The position numbers and the translations under genes are program-made. Under the pieces are notes generated by a model. It made no database searches. It was not told where the DNA came from and saw nothing but the letters and a program-made list of their open reading frames with translations. Shown here piece by piece: positions 38,646-45,134 of a stretch of 50,152 nucleotides of DNA (its first letter is position 1; every line of letters begins with the position of its first letter). The stretch comes from Bacteroidales bacterium (GTDB lineage Bacteria > Bacteroidota > Bacteroidia > Bacteroidales > TTA-H9), in contig JAUSOY010000017.1 in NCBI GenBank assembly GCA_030656615.1, positions 1 through 50,152 of the forward strand, given 5' to 3'.

Positions 38646-38670
38646 CCATCATTCTTAAAAATTACTTTCA

Positions 38671-38696
38671 CGCCGGATTAAATCCGGCGTTTTTTT
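38671..38696 (+). terminator. Terminator after pheS
   Basis: A GC-rich stem, CGCCGGATT (38671-38679) with AATCCGGCG (38681-38689), followed by a run of seven T (38690-38696). It lies 25 bases after the pheS stop. Confidence 0.88.
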
Positions 38697-39024
38697 GTGC
38701 CTTCTGTTAATAAATTCACAGTATCCTTCAATTTGTTTCTGGACTCATTCCACATTAGTAATGTAAACGCCTTATTTAGTGTTTATTAAATTGTATTCTA
38801 TAAGGGGCTAAACATTATTAAAACAATCGTCATTTGCCTTGAAAATCCCCATGAAAGCGATACCTTTGCCCCGTTTTTTCATCCTTTTAAACAATGTCAA
38901 ACAGGATCGAGGGGCTTCATAAATTAAATCACACCCGTTGTTGGGACGACGGCTGGTAAATATGTGATTTTAATAACTCCCGCTCTTTTCTTCATCCCCA
39001 TTAATCACTTTTCAAAATATTCTT
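38697..39024 (+). other. Noncoding region and structured leader of the symporter operon
   Basis: 328 bases with no gene between the pheS terminator and the symporter ATG. From the -7 element at 38861 the predicted transcript has a ~150-base leader. Within it AAATCACA (38926-38933) pairs with TGTGATTT (38963-38970), enclosing the hairpin CCGTTGT-TGGG-ACGACGG (38935-38952) and the unpaired CTGGTAAATA. Upstream, ATCCT (38881-38885) can pair with AGGAT (38913-38917). It may be a regulatory RNA element; I do not recognise a named family. Confidence 0.45.
38861..38868 (+). promoter_or_regulatory. -7 element of symporter/CoA-transferase/oxidoreductase operon (TACCTTTG)
   Basis: TACCTTTG matches TAnnTTTG. 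A TTTG lies at 38833-38836, 24 bases upstream, slightly wide for the -33 element. It is the only good promoter candidate for the four-gene operon. Confidence 0.65.
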
Positions 39025-40455
39025 ATGAACACATACATTCTTGTTGTTTGTATCTATTTTTTATTGGTAGTCATTGTGTCGCTATACACAAAAAAAATGG
39101 CCAGTCGTTCATCAGCTGATTATCTGATTGCCGGCAGAAACCTTGGCGTAATCGTTTGTGCAGTAGTAGTTGCCGCCGAATGGCTTGGTGGTATGAGCAC
39201 CATTGGAGTTAGCGAACAGGCATTTAAAACTGGCTCATTTCAACCAATACTTTATAATCTAAGTACGGCTGTTGGAATGATTATTATTGGATTTACGGTC
39301 GCTAAACAATACCGCGAAAGAAATCTTCACACGGTAAGTGAAATGATTCAACATTTGTTTGGTACAAAAGCCAGAAATATTTCTGCTATTTCCTTTCTGC
39401 TTGCATATGTGGTATTAGCTTTTGTTCAACTTCAAACATGTGCCAGCGTTATTGCTCCCCTATTTAATATCGACTGGACACTTTCGGTGATTATCTCCTC
39501 AGTAATTATTACTGCTTATATGTATGTTGGCGGTATGCATGCATTGGCAATTACAGGCATGATGCATTTAGTTGTGATGTTTGTTGGATTGAGTATTGCC
39601 ACATTAACGGGTCTTATCGATGTTGGTGGTTTCTCAGCCCTCACAGCAAAACTTCATGCGGTTGGTGTGCAAAATAATCCTTACAATCCGTTTAATGTAA
39701 GTTTATGGTATCCCATTAATCTCCTGATCGGCGGTGTATTGGGCGGAATGGCAGGCCAGGCAAGTATTCAGCCCATTTTTGCAGCCAAAAATCCACTCAC
39801 AGCCAAGAGAGCAGCCATTCTCTCCGGATTCATTGTTGCCCCATTTGGCGTCATGGTTGCCATTCTCGGGCTAATCGGACGTACCGGCGATTACATTAAC
39901 ATTACGGATACTTTCAATGCCAAAACTGTTTTATCAACACTGCTCACCAATCCTGAATTTATATCACCCATTTTTGGTGGCCTGGCATTAGCCGGTATTT
40001 TAGCGGCCATTTTATCTACCGTTGGTCCTGTTAACTTCGCTATTGTTACAATAGCTACGAAAGACATTTATCATGGATTGATTAATCCAAATGCCGATGA
40101 TGACCGTATTGTAGTTATTGCCCGCCGTCTGGTAATTCTGGTAAATTTTGTGACGATACCACTGGCCATAGCCACCAAGGGAGGAATTCTGGATCTTGCA
40201 TACATTTCATACGCCATCCGGGCCATTGGCGCAATAGTAATATTTCTTGGGATTTATGCTACAAAAGTCATAACCCCTCGCGGTACGGTAATGGCATTTA
40301 TTGGAGCTACCGTAGCCGTAATCTTTGGAATGATTGCAAAATCTGCAGGTTGGTTTAATATCGAAGCTACTTTCCTGAGTGTCGGGGTTACGTTAGTGTT
40401 GATTATCCTCGGAAAACAAATTGACAATTTCATTAAGCGCAGGAATAACAAATAA
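39025..40455 (+). CDS. Sodium:solute symporter (SSS family)
   Basis: 476 residues with about 13 membrane helices. The N-terminal part has ASRSSADYLIAGRNLG and the AEWLGGMSTIGVSEQAF segment of the SSS family (PF00474). A GGVLGGMAGQASIQPIFAAK stretch and the sodium-site region APFGVMVAILGLIG follow. It should take up an organic solute with sodium across the inner membrane. The downstream CoA-transferase and 2-oxoacid oxidoreductase suggest a carboxylate or 2-oxoacid as substrate; that is inference. The next gene begins one base after its stop. Confidence 0.93.
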   Translation: MNTYILVVCIYFLLVVIVSLYTKKMASRSSADYLIAGRNLGVIVCAVVVAAEWLGGMSTIGVSEQAFKTGSFQPILYNLSTAVGMIIIGFTVAKQYRERNLHTVSEMIQHLFGTKARNISAISFLLAYVVLAFVQLQTCASVIAPLFNIDWTLSVIISSVIITAYMYVGGMHALAITGMMHLVVMFVGLSIATLTGLIDVGGFSALTAKLHAVGVQNNPYNPFNVSLWYPINLLIGGVLGGMAGQASIQPIFAAKNPLTAKRAAILSGFIVAPFGVMVAILGLIGRTGDYINITDTFNAKTVLSTLLTNPEFISPIFGGLALAGILAAILSTVGPVNFAIVTIATKDIYHGLINPNADDDRIVVIARRLVILVNFVTIPLAIATKGGILDLAYISYAIRAIGAIVIFLGIYATKVITPRGTVMAFIGATVAVIFGMIAKSAGWFNIEATFLSVGVTLVLIILGKQIDNFIKRRNNK

Positions 40456-40456
40456 T

Positions 40457-41668
40457 ATGAGCTCAAATAATCTCCCTTTAAAAAACATTAAAATTCTTGA
40501 ACTGGCCAGTGTTTTAGCCGGCCCAAGTGTGGGAATGTTTTTTGCTGAATTGGGCGCCACGGTTATCAAAGTTGAAAATCTGGTTACCAATGGCGATGTT
40601 ACCAGAAACTGGAAACTTCCTACTGAAGCAGATGATGATATTTCAGGATACTTTTCGAGTGTAAACTGGGGCAAACTTTCTCTGGCGATAGACATCACAA
40701 GGCCGGAAGGTCTTGAAATCATTCATAAACTGACTACTCAATGCGATATCGTATTAGCAAGTTATAAACCCGGTGACGATAAGAAGCTAAAAGTCGATTA
40801 CGAAACGCTTAGCGCGTTAAATCCGGAACTGATTTATGCTCATTTAACCGGTTATGGACTTAATAACCCTCGCCCGGGTTTTGATGCCATTATTCAGGCC
40901 GAAGCTGGATTCACGTATATGAACGGTGAAGCGGATTCCATGCCTGTTAAAATGCCCGTGGCGCTTATGGACGTTTTGGCTGCCCATCACCTGAAAGAAG
41001 CCATTCTTATCTCATTATTGAAAAGAATTAATACAGGAAGAGGAGAATACATTGATGTATCGCTCATAAGATCCGGCATTGCTTCACTTGTAAATCAAGC
41101 GACTAATTGGCTGGTAGGCAATAGCATACCCGAACGATTGGGTTCCGATCATCCCAACATTGTACCCTATGGCACCCTGTTTAAAACTGCTGATAATAAA
41201 GAAATTGTTCTGGCTGTTGGAACAGAAAAGCATTTTCATGACCTTTGTGCCGTATTGGATGCACCTGAACTGTTTAACGACCTGCGTTTTAAAACCAATA
41301 AAGACAGGGTAAATCATAAGGAAGCCCTCAAGGAATTACTCAGAAAGAAATTCCTGCTTCACGAACGGGATGCCATGCTTGAGAAATTAAACGCAAAACG
41401 TATTCCGGCAGGGAGTGTAAACAATATGAAAGAAGTTTTCGAAACCGATGAAGCAAAAGAAATGCTTCTGCAAGACACTATAAACAGAGGAATTACCGGT
41501 GTTCGTTCGGTAGCTTTCCGTTTTAATCGTAATGGACTTGTTAATAACATATTACCACCGCCACATTACGGAGATAGTACCACAGAAGTCCTTTCCTCCT
41601 GGCTCGGTTTCAAAGAACAATACATTAATGATTTGATTGAAAAACAGGTTATTTATGCAAAAAAATAA
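40457..41668 (+). CDS. Class III CoA-transferase (CaiB/BaiF family)
   Basis: 403 residues from ATG 40457, directly after the symporter stop; the longer frame runs back into that gene and is rejected. It opens with LKNIKILELASVLAGPSVGM and has GATVIKVENL, typical of family III. The likely catalytic aspartate is Asp172 in VALMDVLAAHHLK, the position that forms an acyl-anhydride in formyl-CoA transferase. It should move CoA between two carboxylates; neither can be read from the sequence. It overlaps the next gene by 14 bases. Confidence 0.92.
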   Translation: MSSNNLPLKNIKILELASVLAGPSVGMFFAELGATVIKVENLVTNGDVTRNWKLPTEADDDISGYFSSVNWGKLSLAIDITRPEGLEIIHKLTTQCDIVLASYKPGDDKKLKVDYETLSALNPELIYAHLTGYGLNNPRPGFDAIIQAEAGFTYMNGEADSMPVKMPVALMDVLAAHHLKEAILISLLKRINTGRGEYIDVSLIRSGIASLVNQATNWLVGNSIPERLGSDHPNIVPYGTLFKTADNKEIVLAVGTEKHFHDLCAVLDAPELFNDLRFKTNKDRVNHKEALKELLRKKFLLHERDAMLEKLNAKRIPAGSVNNMKEVFETDEAKEMLLQDTINRGITGVRSVAFRFNRNGLVNNILPPPHYGDSTTEVLSSWLGFKEQYINDLIEKQVIYAKK

Positions 41669-42776
41669 TTCACAAGAATCCGTTTTAATCGACGGTTCAC
41701 GCCTTATGATCGAAGCAATGGCAAGAGCCGGTGCCGATACATTTATCGGTTACCCGATAACTCCTGCCAATCTGCTTTACTTGTATGCAACTCAGCGTTT
41801 TGAACTAATGCTTCCAGCCCCTGATGAAATCACAACAATTCAGTGGATGACTGGCTTGGCTGCTACAGGAAGAATCCCAGTTACAGCTACCTCTTTTCCC
41901 GGATTTGCTCTGATGATCGAATCCATTAATATGGCATACATGATGGAACTTCCTATGGTTATCGTTCTGGCTCAACGCCTGGGACCTGCCACCGGAACAG
42001 CCACTTGTGGAGCCCAGGGCGATATTGCTTTACTGCGTGGTATGTACTCAGGAGGCTTCAGTATTCCTGTCTTCTCACCATCAGCATACAGCGATTCATG
42101 GACTATGGCAGGCGAAGCCGTCAGAGTAGCTATCAAACTTCGTACTCCGGTAGTTCTTCTCACTTCGAAAGAAGAAGTTATGACGCATAAAAACTTTGAT
42201 ATTTCGCACCTTCCAGAAATCACGGCCACTCAGATGAAAGGCTTTGATTTAGCAGATGAATATCGCACCTATGCCAACACAGAGGATAAGATTCCTCCTT
42301 TCCTTGCCGTTCCCAACAACAAGCATCAGATTCGTATTACCGCCAGTACCCATGATACCAAAGGAATTCTTCAGCATTCGACCGAAGAAGCGATTGACAA
42401 TACACTTCGCCTACAGGAAAAAACCATGAAGTATCTGGACGATTTTACTCATTATGATCTCGACGAACAGGCTGGTGCGACAAAACTGCTGATTTCATTT
42501 GGTATAACAGCATTAGCCGCTTTGGACGCTGTAAACAGAATGAGGACTTCCGGTGAAAAAATTTCTTTACTTACCATAAAAACACTTCTGCCAGTTCCTC
42601 CGGTATATTATGAGATAATGGATAAGTACAGCAACATAATAATTGCCGAGGAAAACAGCACCGCCCAATATTCCAAAATACTTTTCGGCGACAGGCTACC
42701 AAAAAATGTTACTCATATAGGAACATTCGGGCGAATGATTACACCATCCGATATAATCAATGGAGGAGCAGAATAA
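41655..42776 (+). CDS. 2-oxoacid:acceptor oxidoreductase alpha subunit (KorA/VorA-like)
   Basis: 373 residues from ATG 41655; the TTG start at 41637 is rejected. It has the pyrimidine-binding domain with GYPITPAN at 32-39, the ATSFPGFALMIE segment, and domain II with LLISFGITALAALDAV. The alpha subunit binds thiamine diphosphate together with the beta subunit encoded next. It lacks the gamma domain, which is fused to beta instead. 2-oxoglutarate, branched-chain, indolepyruvate and phenylpyruvate enzymes all share this fold, so the substrate is open. The stop overlaps the beta-gamma start in TAATG. Confidence 0.9.
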   Translation: MQKNNSQESVLIDGSRLMIEAMARAGADTFIGYPITPANLLYLYATQRFELMLPAPDEITTIQWMTGLAATGRIPVTATSFPGFALMIESINMAYMMELPMVIVLAQRLGPATGTATCGAQGDIALLRGMYSGGFSIPVFSPSAYSDSWTMAGEAVRVAIKLRTPVVLLTSKEEVMTHKNFDISHLPEITATQMKGFDLADEYRTYANTEDKIPPFLAVPNNKHQIRITASTHDTKGILQHSTEEAIDNTLRLQEKTMKYLDDFTHYDLDEQAGATKLLISFGITALAALDAVNRMRTSGEKISLLTIKTLLPVPPVYYEIMDKYSNIIIAEENSTAQYSKILFGDRLPKNVTHIGTFGRMITPSDIINGGAE

Positions 42777-44071
42777 TGAGCACAAACTTTCTCAACACAA
42801 GCAATTTGCCTTTTTGTAAAGGCTGCGGTCATGATCTTGTTTCGAAAAACACTGCCAAAGCACTTGATATGCTTGGTCTTGATCCCAAAGATGTTATCGT
42901 GGTAACTGACATTGGTTGTCATGGTATTATCGATAAAGCGCTGAATGCCCATACTGTTCATGGACTTCATGGCCGTTCTGTTGCACTGGCAACCGGTGTA
43001 TCTTTGGGGGTTCAGGAACCTGGAAAGAAAATACTGGTTTTTCTTGGTGATGGAGGTGCTACCATCGGTTTACAACACATTATCGAAGCAGCACGCCTCA
43101 ACCTGAATATGAGCATCGTTATCCACAATAACTATTTGTATGGAATGACCGGCGGGCAAACTTCCGGCCTAACTCCTGAAGGATTTCGCACAACCACTGC
43201 CCTCAGCGGAAATACTTTTGCGGCTCACGACTTATGTGCTCTAACCCATGCTGCAGGTGCGTCTTATGTTACACGTATCATGGGCATTGGCGATTTCTCT
43301 GATCAATTGGCAGAAGCTTATAAAACAAAAGGATGCTCGGTAATAGAAGTGATAGAGCTTTGCCCCAGTTATGGCGTAAAATTCAATCCGAACCGTAAAT
43401 TACGTGATATTGCCTTTGAAGCAGGAAAGCCTGAGGGCGTATGGACAAATGACAGACCTCCATTCAACGGATCTGATTCAAACTTCAAGGAAAAATATCT
43501 GAAGCCCAACGTTAAATCACTTTTTGATAAGCTTGATAAAATTAATATTAAATACCCAAGCAGCCTTAATAAGGGCTACTCAATTGTTCTCAGTGGATCG
43601 GCGGGTGAAGGCGTTCAGCTGGCAGCCAGCATCATCACTAAAGCAGCATTAAGTTGTGGGTTAAATGCCACCCAAAAGGGCAGCTATCCAGTTACTGTAG
43701 GTGTAGGCTTCTCTTCCTCAGAAATCAATCTTTCACCCGAAACCATCAACTACCATGGGATGGATATTCCGGATTTGGTAGTGGCCACATCGGAAGAAGG
43801 GCTGGCATACAGCCTTAAGAAAATCAAACAGATGCAAGGTGGAATTCTCATCATTGATCAAAGCCTTGATGTACCAATAACAGGAGCGAAAGTTATTCCA
43901 TTTGATTTCAGAAGCTTTGGGGCAAAAAATGCATCCATTATGGCTTCTATATTTTTCGCCGATAAAACGGGTATTATCCCTCGCGAATCCATCCTCGACA
44001 TGATGGAAAGTAGTGGACTTGCCGCAAAATTACCACTCGAAAAAATACTGGCTGCCCTCGATCGGGACTAA
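42776..44071 (+). CDS. Fused beta-gamma subunit of 2-oxoacid:acceptor oxidoreductase
   Basis: 431 residues. The beta part (1-~240) has the four cluster cysteines of the family, C14-C17 (FCKGCGH), C48 (DIGCHG) and C196 (ELCPSYGVKFNP), and the thiamine diphosphate motif from GDGG (91-94) to IHNNYLYGMTGGQTSG. From about residue 267 a gamma domain starts (YSIVLSGSAGEGVQLAASII). No ferredoxin-like delta domain is encoded nearby. The enzyme should interconvert a 2-oxoacid plus CoA with an acyl-CoA, carbon dioxide and reduced ferredoxin. It is the last gene of the operon, before a strong terminator. Confidence 0.92.
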   Translation: MSTNFLNTSNLPFCKGCGHDLVSKNTAKALDMLGLDPKDVIVVTDIGCHGIIDKALNAHTVHGLHGRSVALATGVSLGVQEPGKKILVFLGDGGATIGLQHIIEAARLNLNMSIVIHNNYLYGMTGGQTSGLTPEGFRTTTALSGNTFAAHDLCALTHAAGASYVTRIMGIGDFSDQLAEAYKTKGCSVIEVIELCPSYGVKFNPNRKLRDIAFEAGKPEGVWTNDRPPFNGSDSNFKEKYLKPNVKSLFDKLDKINIKYPSSLNKGYSIVLSGSAGEGVQLAASIITKAALSCGLNATQKGSYPVTVGVGFSSSEINLSPETINYHGMDIPDLVVATSEEGLAYSLKKIKQMQGGILIIDQSLDVPITGAKVIPFDFRSFGAKNASIMASIFFADKTGIIPRESILDMMESSGLAAKLPLEKILAALDRD

Positions 44072-44095: not shown

Positions 44096-44130
44096 GGCCA
44101 AAGAATTCTTACTAATTCTTTGGCCGTTTT
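44096..44130 (+). terminator. Terminator of the symporter/oxidoreductase operon
   Basis: A perfect 12-bp stem, GGCCAAAGAATT (44096-44107) with AATTCTTTGGCC (44114-44125), a 6-base loop, then GTTTTT. It lies 25 bases after the beta-gamma stop and separates this operon from the LpxR-like gene. Confidence 0.9.
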
Positions 44131-44156: not shown

Positions 44157-45134
44157 ATGTTTAAGCCATTTTTACATCCTATCCTTGCCGTTTTTCTATT
44201 CGCTGCGATACCAATAATCTCATCTGCTCAGAAAAATGACACACTCAAAACATATCCTGAAATATGTGTACTTGTGGATAATGACGCGTTTACATTAAAC
44301 AAAGATTTGGACCACTACTACACCACCGGTATTTATCTTGGATATAAAAAACCTGCCAGAGACCGTAGTATAGGTCATTATAGCACAAAGACCCAAAAGC
44401 AGATCACTCTGCAAATGAGAATGTTTACACCCATATACATTGGAATGACCGATCCGGCTTACATGGACAGACCTTTCGCCGCGGTTCTCAGTTTAGCATA
44501 CAAGCACTCCTTTTACTTTTCAATTCCATTATATTTCGGAATAGGTGCTGAGGCCGGCTGGATTGGCCCTTCCAACAGAATTTCGGGGATGCAGGAACTA
44601 TTGCATGATGTCTTCAGAATGCAAAAAGCACTGGGATGGAAATTTCAAATAAATGATGCTCCTATATTTAATATCTACCTGGATGCAGCAAGAGGCATTT
44701 CGACAGGCAGGCAATCAGATATAATTTTCGAATCACACCTGGCTGCAGGAAATTTATTTACTTTTTTTCGTCAGGAGGTTCTGTTCAGGATTGGGAAATT
44801 ACAAGCCATCAATAATTCCATGCACTATGGAGCCAGTATAAAAAGCAATGAACTATCAGACAAAACAAATGAAATCTACTTTTTTGCGGGACCTGGCATC
44901 GAAGGAGTTGTACATAATGGAAGTATCGAAGGCAATTTAATTGGCAAAAAATCAATTTATACCGAAAAAGCCTTCCCCTTCGTTTACAAATTCAGAATGG
45001 GTTTCATGATGCAACGCAGGACTTACAGTTTTGGAGTAGTCTATCACTGGCTCACCAAAGAAACTATTTGGGCCAGAAATCACCAATATGTTGGAATACT
45101 GTTTACTCAGAAACTGAATACAAAACATGATTAG
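44157..45134 (+). CDS. LpxR-like lipid A deacylase family outer membrane protein
   Basis: 325 residues from ATG 44157. The open frame extends back into the oxidoreductase gene, but the signal peptide MFKPFLHPILAVFLFAAIPI starts here, after the terminator. The mature part opens with VDNDAFTLNKDLDHYYTTGIYLGY, quoted here as VDNDAFT and DHYYTTGIYLGY, matching the NDxF ... YTxG pattern of LpxR proteins. Aromatic-rich alternating strands and a C-terminal FTQKLN fit an outer-membrane barrel. LpxR removes 3'-linked acyl chains from lipid A; activity here is inferred. Confidence 0.75.
   Translation: MFKPFLHPILAVFLFAAIPIISSAQKNDTLKTYPEICVLVDNDAFTLNKDLDHYYTTGIYLGYKKPARDRSIGHYSTKTQKQITLQMRMFTPIYIGMTDPAYMDRPFAAVLSLAYKHSFYFSIPLYFGIGAEAGWIGPSNRISGMQELLHDVFRMQKALGWKFQINDAPIFNIYLDAARGISTGRQSDIIFESHLAAGNLFTFFRQEVLFRIGKLQAINNSMHYGASIKSNELSDKTNEIYFFAGPGIEGVVHNGSIEGNLIGKKSIYTEKAFPFVYKFRMGFMMQRRTYSFGVVYHWLTKETIWARNHQYVGILFTQKLNTKHD

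Follow-up and report, generated by a model that had tools for sequence, protein, structure and literature searches.

The stretch of DNA analysed here, termed the window, comprises 50,152 nt of contig JAUSOY010000017.1 from a Bacteroidales bacterium whose genome is designated G000. On its forward strand the open reading frame (ORF) list and the sequence show an operon that encodes, in order, a sodium:solute symporter (SSF), a class III CoA-transferase (CoAT), the alpha subunit of a 2-oxoacid:ferredoxin oxidoreductase (OFOR), and a fused OFOR beta-gamma subunit. The last two are referred to as the pair. The features of the region, each with the method that supports it, are as follows.

38670..38690, + strand: terminator-like hairpin 3' of the upstream gene, separating the operon from that gene (hairpin scan)
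38838..38868, + strand: promoter candidate of Bacteroidota type, with CTTG at 38838-38841, a 19-base spacer, and TAccTTTG at 38861-38868 (pattern search)
39025..40455, + strand: SSF protein, 476 aa, ATG start; its substrate would be glutarate or another acid of the path proposed below (ORF, Pfam, NCBIfam)
40457..41668, + strand: class III CoA-transferase, 403 aa, ATG start (ORF, Pfam, NCBIfam, PDB matches)
41655..42776, + strand: OFOR alpha, 373 aa, ATG start, with POR_N and the YPITP and QRLGP motifs (Pfam, alignment)
42776..44071, + strand: fused OFOR beta-gamma, 431 aa, ATG start (ORF, Pfam)
42776..43375, + strand: beta part, residues 1-200 of beta-gamma, with thiamine pyrophosphate (TPP) binding and cluster cysteines (Pfam, alignment)
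43601..43891, + strand: gamma part, POR (PF01558), residues 276-372 of beta-gamma (Pfam)
44096..44125, + strand: terminator-like hairpin, a 12-bp stem followed by a T run, GTTTTTATTA (hairpin scan)

A first-pass annotation had described four packed genes between one promoter and a terminator, a single unit combining transport, CoA transfer and a 2-oxoacid oxidoreductase. Its coordinates prove exact: SSF and CoAT are separated by a 1-base gap, CoAT and alpha overlap by 14 bases, and alpha and beta-gamma by 1 base, while the start it gave for the operon, 38861, is the first base of the TAccTTTG box. Pfam confirms all four families. The alpha ORF also has a longer form, with a TTG start at 41637. 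The assignment of TAccTTTG relies on what we take to be the Bacteroidota promoter consensus; a looser form of the pattern, TTG-N18-21-TAnnTTTG, occurs five times in the window, both strands counted. A sigma-70 scan found no + strand site from 38000 to the first operon gene, and an Rfam scan for a leader RNA or riboswitch upstream of the operon found nothing near gathering score. The four genes form one real transcriptional unit that runs from the promoter candidate to the terminator-like hairpin. Many Bacteroidales have the genes in this order, with proteins about 60% identical, which is beyond chance.

Protein families

The SSF protein scores above cut-off to PF00474 (123.7 bits against 22.8) and below it to TIGR00813 (134 against 184); its LSTVG stretch, presumably the Na2 site, is conserved in 28 aligned rows. 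The CoAT, at 304.3 bits against a cut-off of 23.3, is the only protein of CoA_transf_3 (PF02515) found in G000. Its best NCBIfam model is succinate--glutarate CoA-transferase (NF052585), with 268.2 bits where the next model reaches 194; since the curated cut-off is 750 bits, the protein may be said to work like that family, not to be a member of it. Among PDB matches, an entry titled formyl-CoA transferase comes first and human SUGCT is among the next best. The Asp of PVALMD, which we assume to be the catalytic Asp of class III CoA-transferases, aligns with that of GVAMTD in SUGCT and is conserved in 97% or more of 31 rows.

The alpha subunit exceeds the POR_N cut-off (114.6 bits against 27) and falls slightly under that of PFOR_II (24.8 against 27). 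TPP_enzyme_C (96.2 bits, cut-off 21.9) and POR (40.9 bits, cut-off 27.4) both lie on the single beta-gamma chain, so the fusion is real, and with POR_N, TPP_C and POR all exceeding Pfam cut-offs the pair belongs to the OFOR family by its domains. In the clade described below, the beta motifs CxxC, GC and CPSYG, whose four cysteines we take to be cluster ligands, are kept in at least 95% of 53 rows, and YPITP and QRLGP of alpha each in 55 of 55. The YPITP Thr and a carboxylate-binding Arg have known roles in OFOR enzymes (PMC5020499). The curated cut-offs for KorAB are not reached (TIGR03710, 235.5 of 482.75 bits; PRK09627, 143.4 of 579; PRK09628, 144.6 of 364), and none of the scanned curated models claims the operon's oxidoreductase or CoAT at cut-off.

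Conservation of gene order

With beta-gamma as query, the named genomes of bacteria and archaea yielded 20 loci, all from Bacteroidota by title. All four genes occur in the same order in 17 of them, including L006, where SSF is cut, and L018 and L019, where beta-gamma is cut; L009 begins 150 bases before alpha, and L007 and L021 have the pair only. Perlabentimonas gracilis M08_MB is a named strain with the operon. Within the window's order the pair is present in 29 of 393 genomes (E 1e-50), while eight other searched members of the window's family have none (E 1e-30). At the 28 loci of the order besides the window, CoAT stands beside the pair in 14 (13 with SSF) and a gene for glutaryl-CoA dehydrogenase (GCDH) in 11, one of which, L134, has CoAT too; four loci have neither. 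GCDH therefore adjoins the pair in 10 of the 14 loci without CoAT beside it. L134 carries, on one strand, a thiolase-like gene, acyl-CoA dehydrogenase, GCDH, SSF, CoAT, alpha, and beta-gamma. The synteny that the first-pass annotation had proposed to look for is thus conserved, and SSF and CoAT do not vary independently but travel together: the sole locus with CoAT and no SSF, L132, begins at a contig edge.

Orthologs of the CoAT (at least 58% identity) were found in 33 of 55 genomes searched, namely those in which CoAT adjoins the pair, and G343, in which the pair locus is truncated and CoAT sits at the edge of another contig. Among the same 55, none was found in hosts with GCDH only or in five relatives without the operon.

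Glutaryl-CoA dehydrogenase and homoaconitase as neighbors of the pair

The partner gene encodes a protein of 393 aa and belongs to one cluster with 12 members in 11 loci, one member being the second acyl-CoA dehydrogenase of L134. Its ten best PDB sequences score 371-450 bits and the next chain 266; nine of the ten are called GCDH (one of them putative) and one acyl-CoA dehydrogenase. Two stretches to which we ascribe catalytic or functional roles in GCDH are also retained, TYEGTH in all seven sequences checked and RSxxSVQxSL in six, the exception being that of G035. At L176:5987-10412 and L180:2969-7387, inspection by eye shows GCDH followed by genes that resemble those for an iron-sulfur electron-transfer protein, a CCG-domain protein, and a butyrate kinase, sets that suggest butyrate as an end product.

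G035 is a member of another Bacteroidota family, in which 79 genomes were searched and nine have the pair; the ninth locus, L273, ends before alpha. In four genomes (L052, L267, L268, and L269) the pair is followed by a gene resembling homoisocitrate dehydrogenase (HICDH) and by homoaconitase. The homoaconitase of L052 scores 883 bits to TIGR00139 (cut-off 530), the best model for its HICDH-like protein is AksF at 271.5 bits (cut-off 500), and the genes of L267-L269 were named through 69-89% identity to those of L052. GCDH is divergent from the pair at L271, L272, and L274. At L270, in genome G720, the pair is transcribed divergently from a set of GCDH, HICDH, one further gene, and homoaconitase, so that all three partner genes lie at one locus. 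With such neighbors the pair would have 2-oxoadipate on one side of its reaction and glutaryl-CoA on the other. G035 gave no match for lysine-ketoglutarate reductase (LKR) or PF16653, and in its family, judging by these gene sets, glutaryl-CoA could be reached from homocitrate with no saccharopine step.

Two observations concern genes 3' of beta-gamma. L128, L129, and L133 have a gene for a 559-560 aa protein on the same strand, and the protein of L129 has its closest likeness to dipeptidases of the C69 family (145.7 bits, below the cut-off of 250), a possible link to peptides. In the window, a gene for an LpxR family outer membrane protein (44160-45134, 146.5 bits) lies directly 3' of the operon's terminator-like hairpin.

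Phylogeny and diagnostic residues of the oxidoreductase

A tree of alpha sequences was built from 81 rows: 53 from the clade of the operon, 11 from distant pairs that also have beta-gamma fused, and 17 outgroup OFOR. L060 (another frame picked), L273 (no alpha in the contig), and L121 and L125 (apparent duplicate assemblies) were left out, as were two other paralogs, L065 and L066. L018 and L019 stand outside the tree and the 53-row motif counts and inside the 55-row residue counts. The CoAT, GCDH, and homoaconitase contexts fall together in a single 53-row clade (SH-aLRT 100, stem 1.99), which is separate from the 17 outgroup rows and does not group with KorAB; the tree has long branches that meet, and only the separateness of the clade is used here. 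The one row of those 17 that was scored, L067 from G000 itself, is KorAB-type, its KorA reaching 633 bits to TIGR03710 (cut-off 483) and its KorB 248 bits against 262 for TIGR02177. Placement of the operon's enzyme in a tree, another check proposed at first pass, thus sets it outside the clade of its own genome's 2-oxoglutarate-type KorAB. With 47 rows labelled by neighborhood, the label changes at least four times on the tree. The 11 distant fused pairs (L053-L059 and L061-L064; 32-40% identity) come from other Bacteroidota and fall in two tree groups.

Two substrate-related positions were described in StOFOR1, where beta K49I loses 2-oxoglutarate activity and keeps pyruvate activity, and alpha D468A abolishes 2-oxoglutarate activity (PMC5020499). 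At the Lys49-beta site, all 17 outgroup rows and 8ys5_C, a 2-oxoglutarate enzyme in PDB, have Arg, while the clade has Ile in 51 of 55 rows and Leu in four. At the Asp468-alpha site, at least 95% of 53 clade rows have Ser. These residues speak against a plain 2-oxoglutarate enzyme and are no proof of 2-oxoadipate.

Lysine genes and co-occurrence

G000 encodes GCDH on another contig (72% identity) and has adjoining genes for LKR, best matched in PDB by human AASS (273 bits), and saccharopine dehydrogenase (SDH), best matched by the yeast-type enzyme (302 bits). The LKR family is present in 51 of the 55 searched genomes, including five members of the window's family without the operon, so the upper part of the lysine pathway is not tied to the operon. 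PF16653 was dropped as a lysine marker for being too broad; it occurs in 53 of 55 genomes, and the member in G350 is nearest to carboxynorspermidine synthase.

GCDH occurs in 69 of the 393 genomes of the order, 16 of 29 with the pair against 53 of 364 without it (odds ratio 7.2, Fisher p 1.8e-6). The 29 genomes with the pair divide into three with both CoAT ortholog and GCDH, 12 with CoAT only, 13 with GCDH only, and one with neither (p 1.2e-4), so that 28 of 29 have one or both, mostly one or the other. Kinship among the genomes makes both p values too small.

Proposed function and alternatives

The common denominator of these contexts is glutaryl-CoA plus 2-oxoadipate, and the best model for the CoAT is a succinate-glutarate enzyme; on this basis the operon is read as linking 2-oxoadipate, glutaryl-CoA and glutarate. 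We consider it likely that the pair is a 2-oxoadipate:ferredoxin oxidoreductase, the CoAT a glutaryl-CoA:dicarboxylate CoA-transferase, and the SSF protein a symporter of one of the path's acids. The pair would interconvert 2-oxoadipate, CoA and oxidized ferredoxin with glutaryl-CoA, CO2 and reduced ferredoxin. The CoAT would pass the CoA of glutaryl-CoA to a second dicarboxylate, most probably succinate, so that glutarate and succinyl-CoA form, or would do the reverse (a bacterial CoA-transferase of the succinate-glutarate type was shown to be reversible, PMC7645780), and the symporter would carry glutarate or a different acid of the path. In G000, lysine would pass through saccharopine and aminoadipate to 2-oxoadipate, the steps of aminoadipate semialdehyde dehydrogenase and an aminotransferase being presumed, and glutaryl-CoA could alternatively go to the unlinked GCDH. 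We favor an oxidative run, in which lysine is turned into glutarate and ATP is gained through succinyl-CoA; driven the other way, the same enzymes could carry out glutarate uptake and reductive carboxylation.

Linkage of the pair to genes that form 2-oxoadipate and genes that consume glutaryl-CoA, which supports this assignment, is seen in relatives, not in the window. Several observations weigh against the assignment. Every NCBIfam model shown leaves the CoAT, OFOR, and SSF proteins under its curated cut-off. Five GCDH-like proteins score 233-271 bits to the NCBIfam GCDH model (Desulfococcus type; cut-off 470), where the other acyl-CoA dehydrogenase of L134 scores higher (295), and a model for acryloyl-CoA reductase equals or slightly exceeds the GCDH model for L129 and L141. 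The residues at the Lys49 and Asp468 sites are no marker of 2-oxoadipate, since the 11 distant fused pairs share them (Leu, Met or Ile at the former, Ser at the latter), and the 2-oxoglutarate-specific KorAB of H. thermophilus also lacks the Lys49 residue (PMC5020499). The LKR and SDH of G000 were matched by no NCBIfam model at 1e-20, and G000 has no nameable aminoadipate semialdehyde dehydrogenase, the better of its two aldehyde dehydrogenases being unspecific. LKR reaches at least 51% identity in 35 of 55 genomes, is at 33-38% in 16 (P. gracilis among them), and is absent in four; five same-family genomes have lysine genes without orthologs of the pair, CoAT, or GCDH. GCDH also occurs in the 53 pair-less genomes counted above, and the search for CoAT in pair-less genomes covered five relatives only. 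The change between CoAT and no CoAT can be explained by no more than two steps on the tree, so the Fisher values exaggerate the association. In G369, which looks like a duplicate of the G355 assembly, GCDH and LKR are missing and the CoAT homologs are only distant (27-36% identity). A homoaconitase ortholog was absent among the searched G000, G320, G326, and 20 named hosts, and the homocitrate route is for this reason not claimed for G000.

The first-pass annotation had named uptake and carboxylation of phenylacetate or branched short-chain acids, citing the physiology of anaerobic Bacteroidota, and had considered the reverse, oxidative direction equally allowed; beta does have YGMTGGQ, a sequence associated with enzymes of that type. 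We reject these substrates as scarcely credible: no aromatic or branched-chain gene is among those neighbors that were named (some only), scores to the VorB (120 bits) and phenylglyoxylate (37 bits) models are low, and the CoAT is nearest to dicarboxylate types; its succinate-glutarate likeness and the GCDH, HICDH-like, and homoaconitase neighbors in relatives point instead to 2-oxoadipate and glutaryl-CoA. An extra 2-oxoglutarate:ferredoxin oxidoreductase, interconverting 2-oxoglutarate and succinyl-CoA so that the CoAT passes CoA to an imported acid, would suit the nearest PDB relatives of the OFOR, which are 2-oxoglutarate or broad 2-oxoacid enzymes, and the best CoAT models, which use succinyl-CoA. 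We regard it as unlikely, as G000 already has a classical KorAB in a separate clade, the Lys49-beta site has Ile or Leu, and the GCDH neighbors would be left unexplained. The neighbors at L052, from the aconitase and isocitrate/isopropylmalate dehydrogenase superfamilies, could be taken in its favor, but the aconitase in question scores above the homoaconitase cut-off, and a separate homolog of aconitase size is present in G035; a complete tricarboxylic acid cycle reading of L052 (aconitase, isocitrate dehydrogenase) was dropped on the same grounds.

A reductive direction, which is the first-pass idea in general form and overlaps the favored assignment, deserves more weight, although we hold it to be the lesser prospect: glutarate would be taken up, converted by CoA transfer, and reductively carboxylated to 2-oxoadipate, then to aminoadipate or lysine. 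SSF proteins are normally importers, and LKR family genes are widespread. Because 12 of the 15 genomes of the order with a CoAT ortholog lack GCDH, glutaryl-CoA from imported glutarate could there, by the enzymes found, go only to 2-oxoadipate. Conversely, no CoAT ortholog supplies glutaryl-CoA in the 13 hosts with GCDH only, so in those the pair is more likely oxidative; reductive carboxylation also needs a strong reductant, and a diaminopimelate pathway, if present, would make the route unnecessary. Supply of glutaryl-CoA for synthesis, for example of pimeloyl-ACP for biotin through BioZ by analogy with alpha-proteobacteria, in which biotin formation depends on a class III transferase, CaiB, that produces glutaryl-CoA from glutarate and succinyl-CoA (PMC7645780), seems most improbable, as pairing with GCDH points to catabolism.

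Relation to known systems

The conversion of 2-oxoadipate to glutaryl-CoA is generally attributed to an enzyme complex of a very different kind. DHTKD1, the 2-oxoadipate dehydrogenase, is an E1/E2/E3 complex with NAD and is unrelated to the operon's OFOR, which has two subunits with ferredoxin; with ferredoxin as partner, the proposed reaction would be reversible. The reaction proposed here is otherwise the one assigned to DHTKD1 in lysine catabolism (PMC9198357). The operon's OFOR resembles KorAB and two-subunit enzymes (TIGR03710; StOFOR, PMC5020499) in being a TPP enzyme with the YPITP Thr, the substrate Arg, and a single four-Cys cluster, and by Pfam it has no ferredoxin domain. It differs in having gamma fused to beta, not alpha, in its separate clade and scores under NCBIfam cut-offs, and in the residues at the Lys49-beta and Asp468-alpha sites.

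The CoAT shares with human SUGCT, A. tumefaciens CaiB (PMC7645780) and NF052585 the class III family, the position of the catalytic Asp, and the proposed reaction, and aligns with SUGCT over nearly its full length; its score lies far below the NF052585 cut-off and, unlike them, it is linked to an OFOR and a symporter. In glutarate catabolism of P. putida, likewise, a class III transferase (the CaiB homolog GcdG, PMC7645780) activates glutarate before glutaryl-CoA dehydrogenation (PMC5974017), but that pathway is not known to include an OFOR, and in the present hosts CoAT and GCDH are mostly alternatives to one another.

Open-licence PMC articles, as represented by listings and the beginnings of abstracts, yielded no report of a ferredoxin-dependent enzyme acting on 2-oxoadipate. 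A bolder proposal, which we offer tentatively and think a little more apt to fail than to stand, is that the clade is a new 2-oxoadipate-specific, ferredoxin-reversible OFOR subfamily that anchors two unrecognized routes: one in Bacteroidales for saccharopine-type lysine degradation, or for assimilating glutarate, and one in the other Bacteroidota family, a homocitrate route that leads from 2-oxoglutarate and acetyl-CoA through 2-oxoadipate and glutaryl-CoA to crotonyl-CoA. If the 2-oxoadipate assignment is true, these bacteria would have a ferredoxin counterpart of 2-oxoadipate dehydrogenase, and a substrate would be named for an OFOR clade whose scanned members fall under curated models. The operon would then let Bacteroidales form or consume glutarate anaerobically, and the conversion of lysine to glutarate, or the reverse, would be testable in Perlabentimonas gracilis M08_MB.

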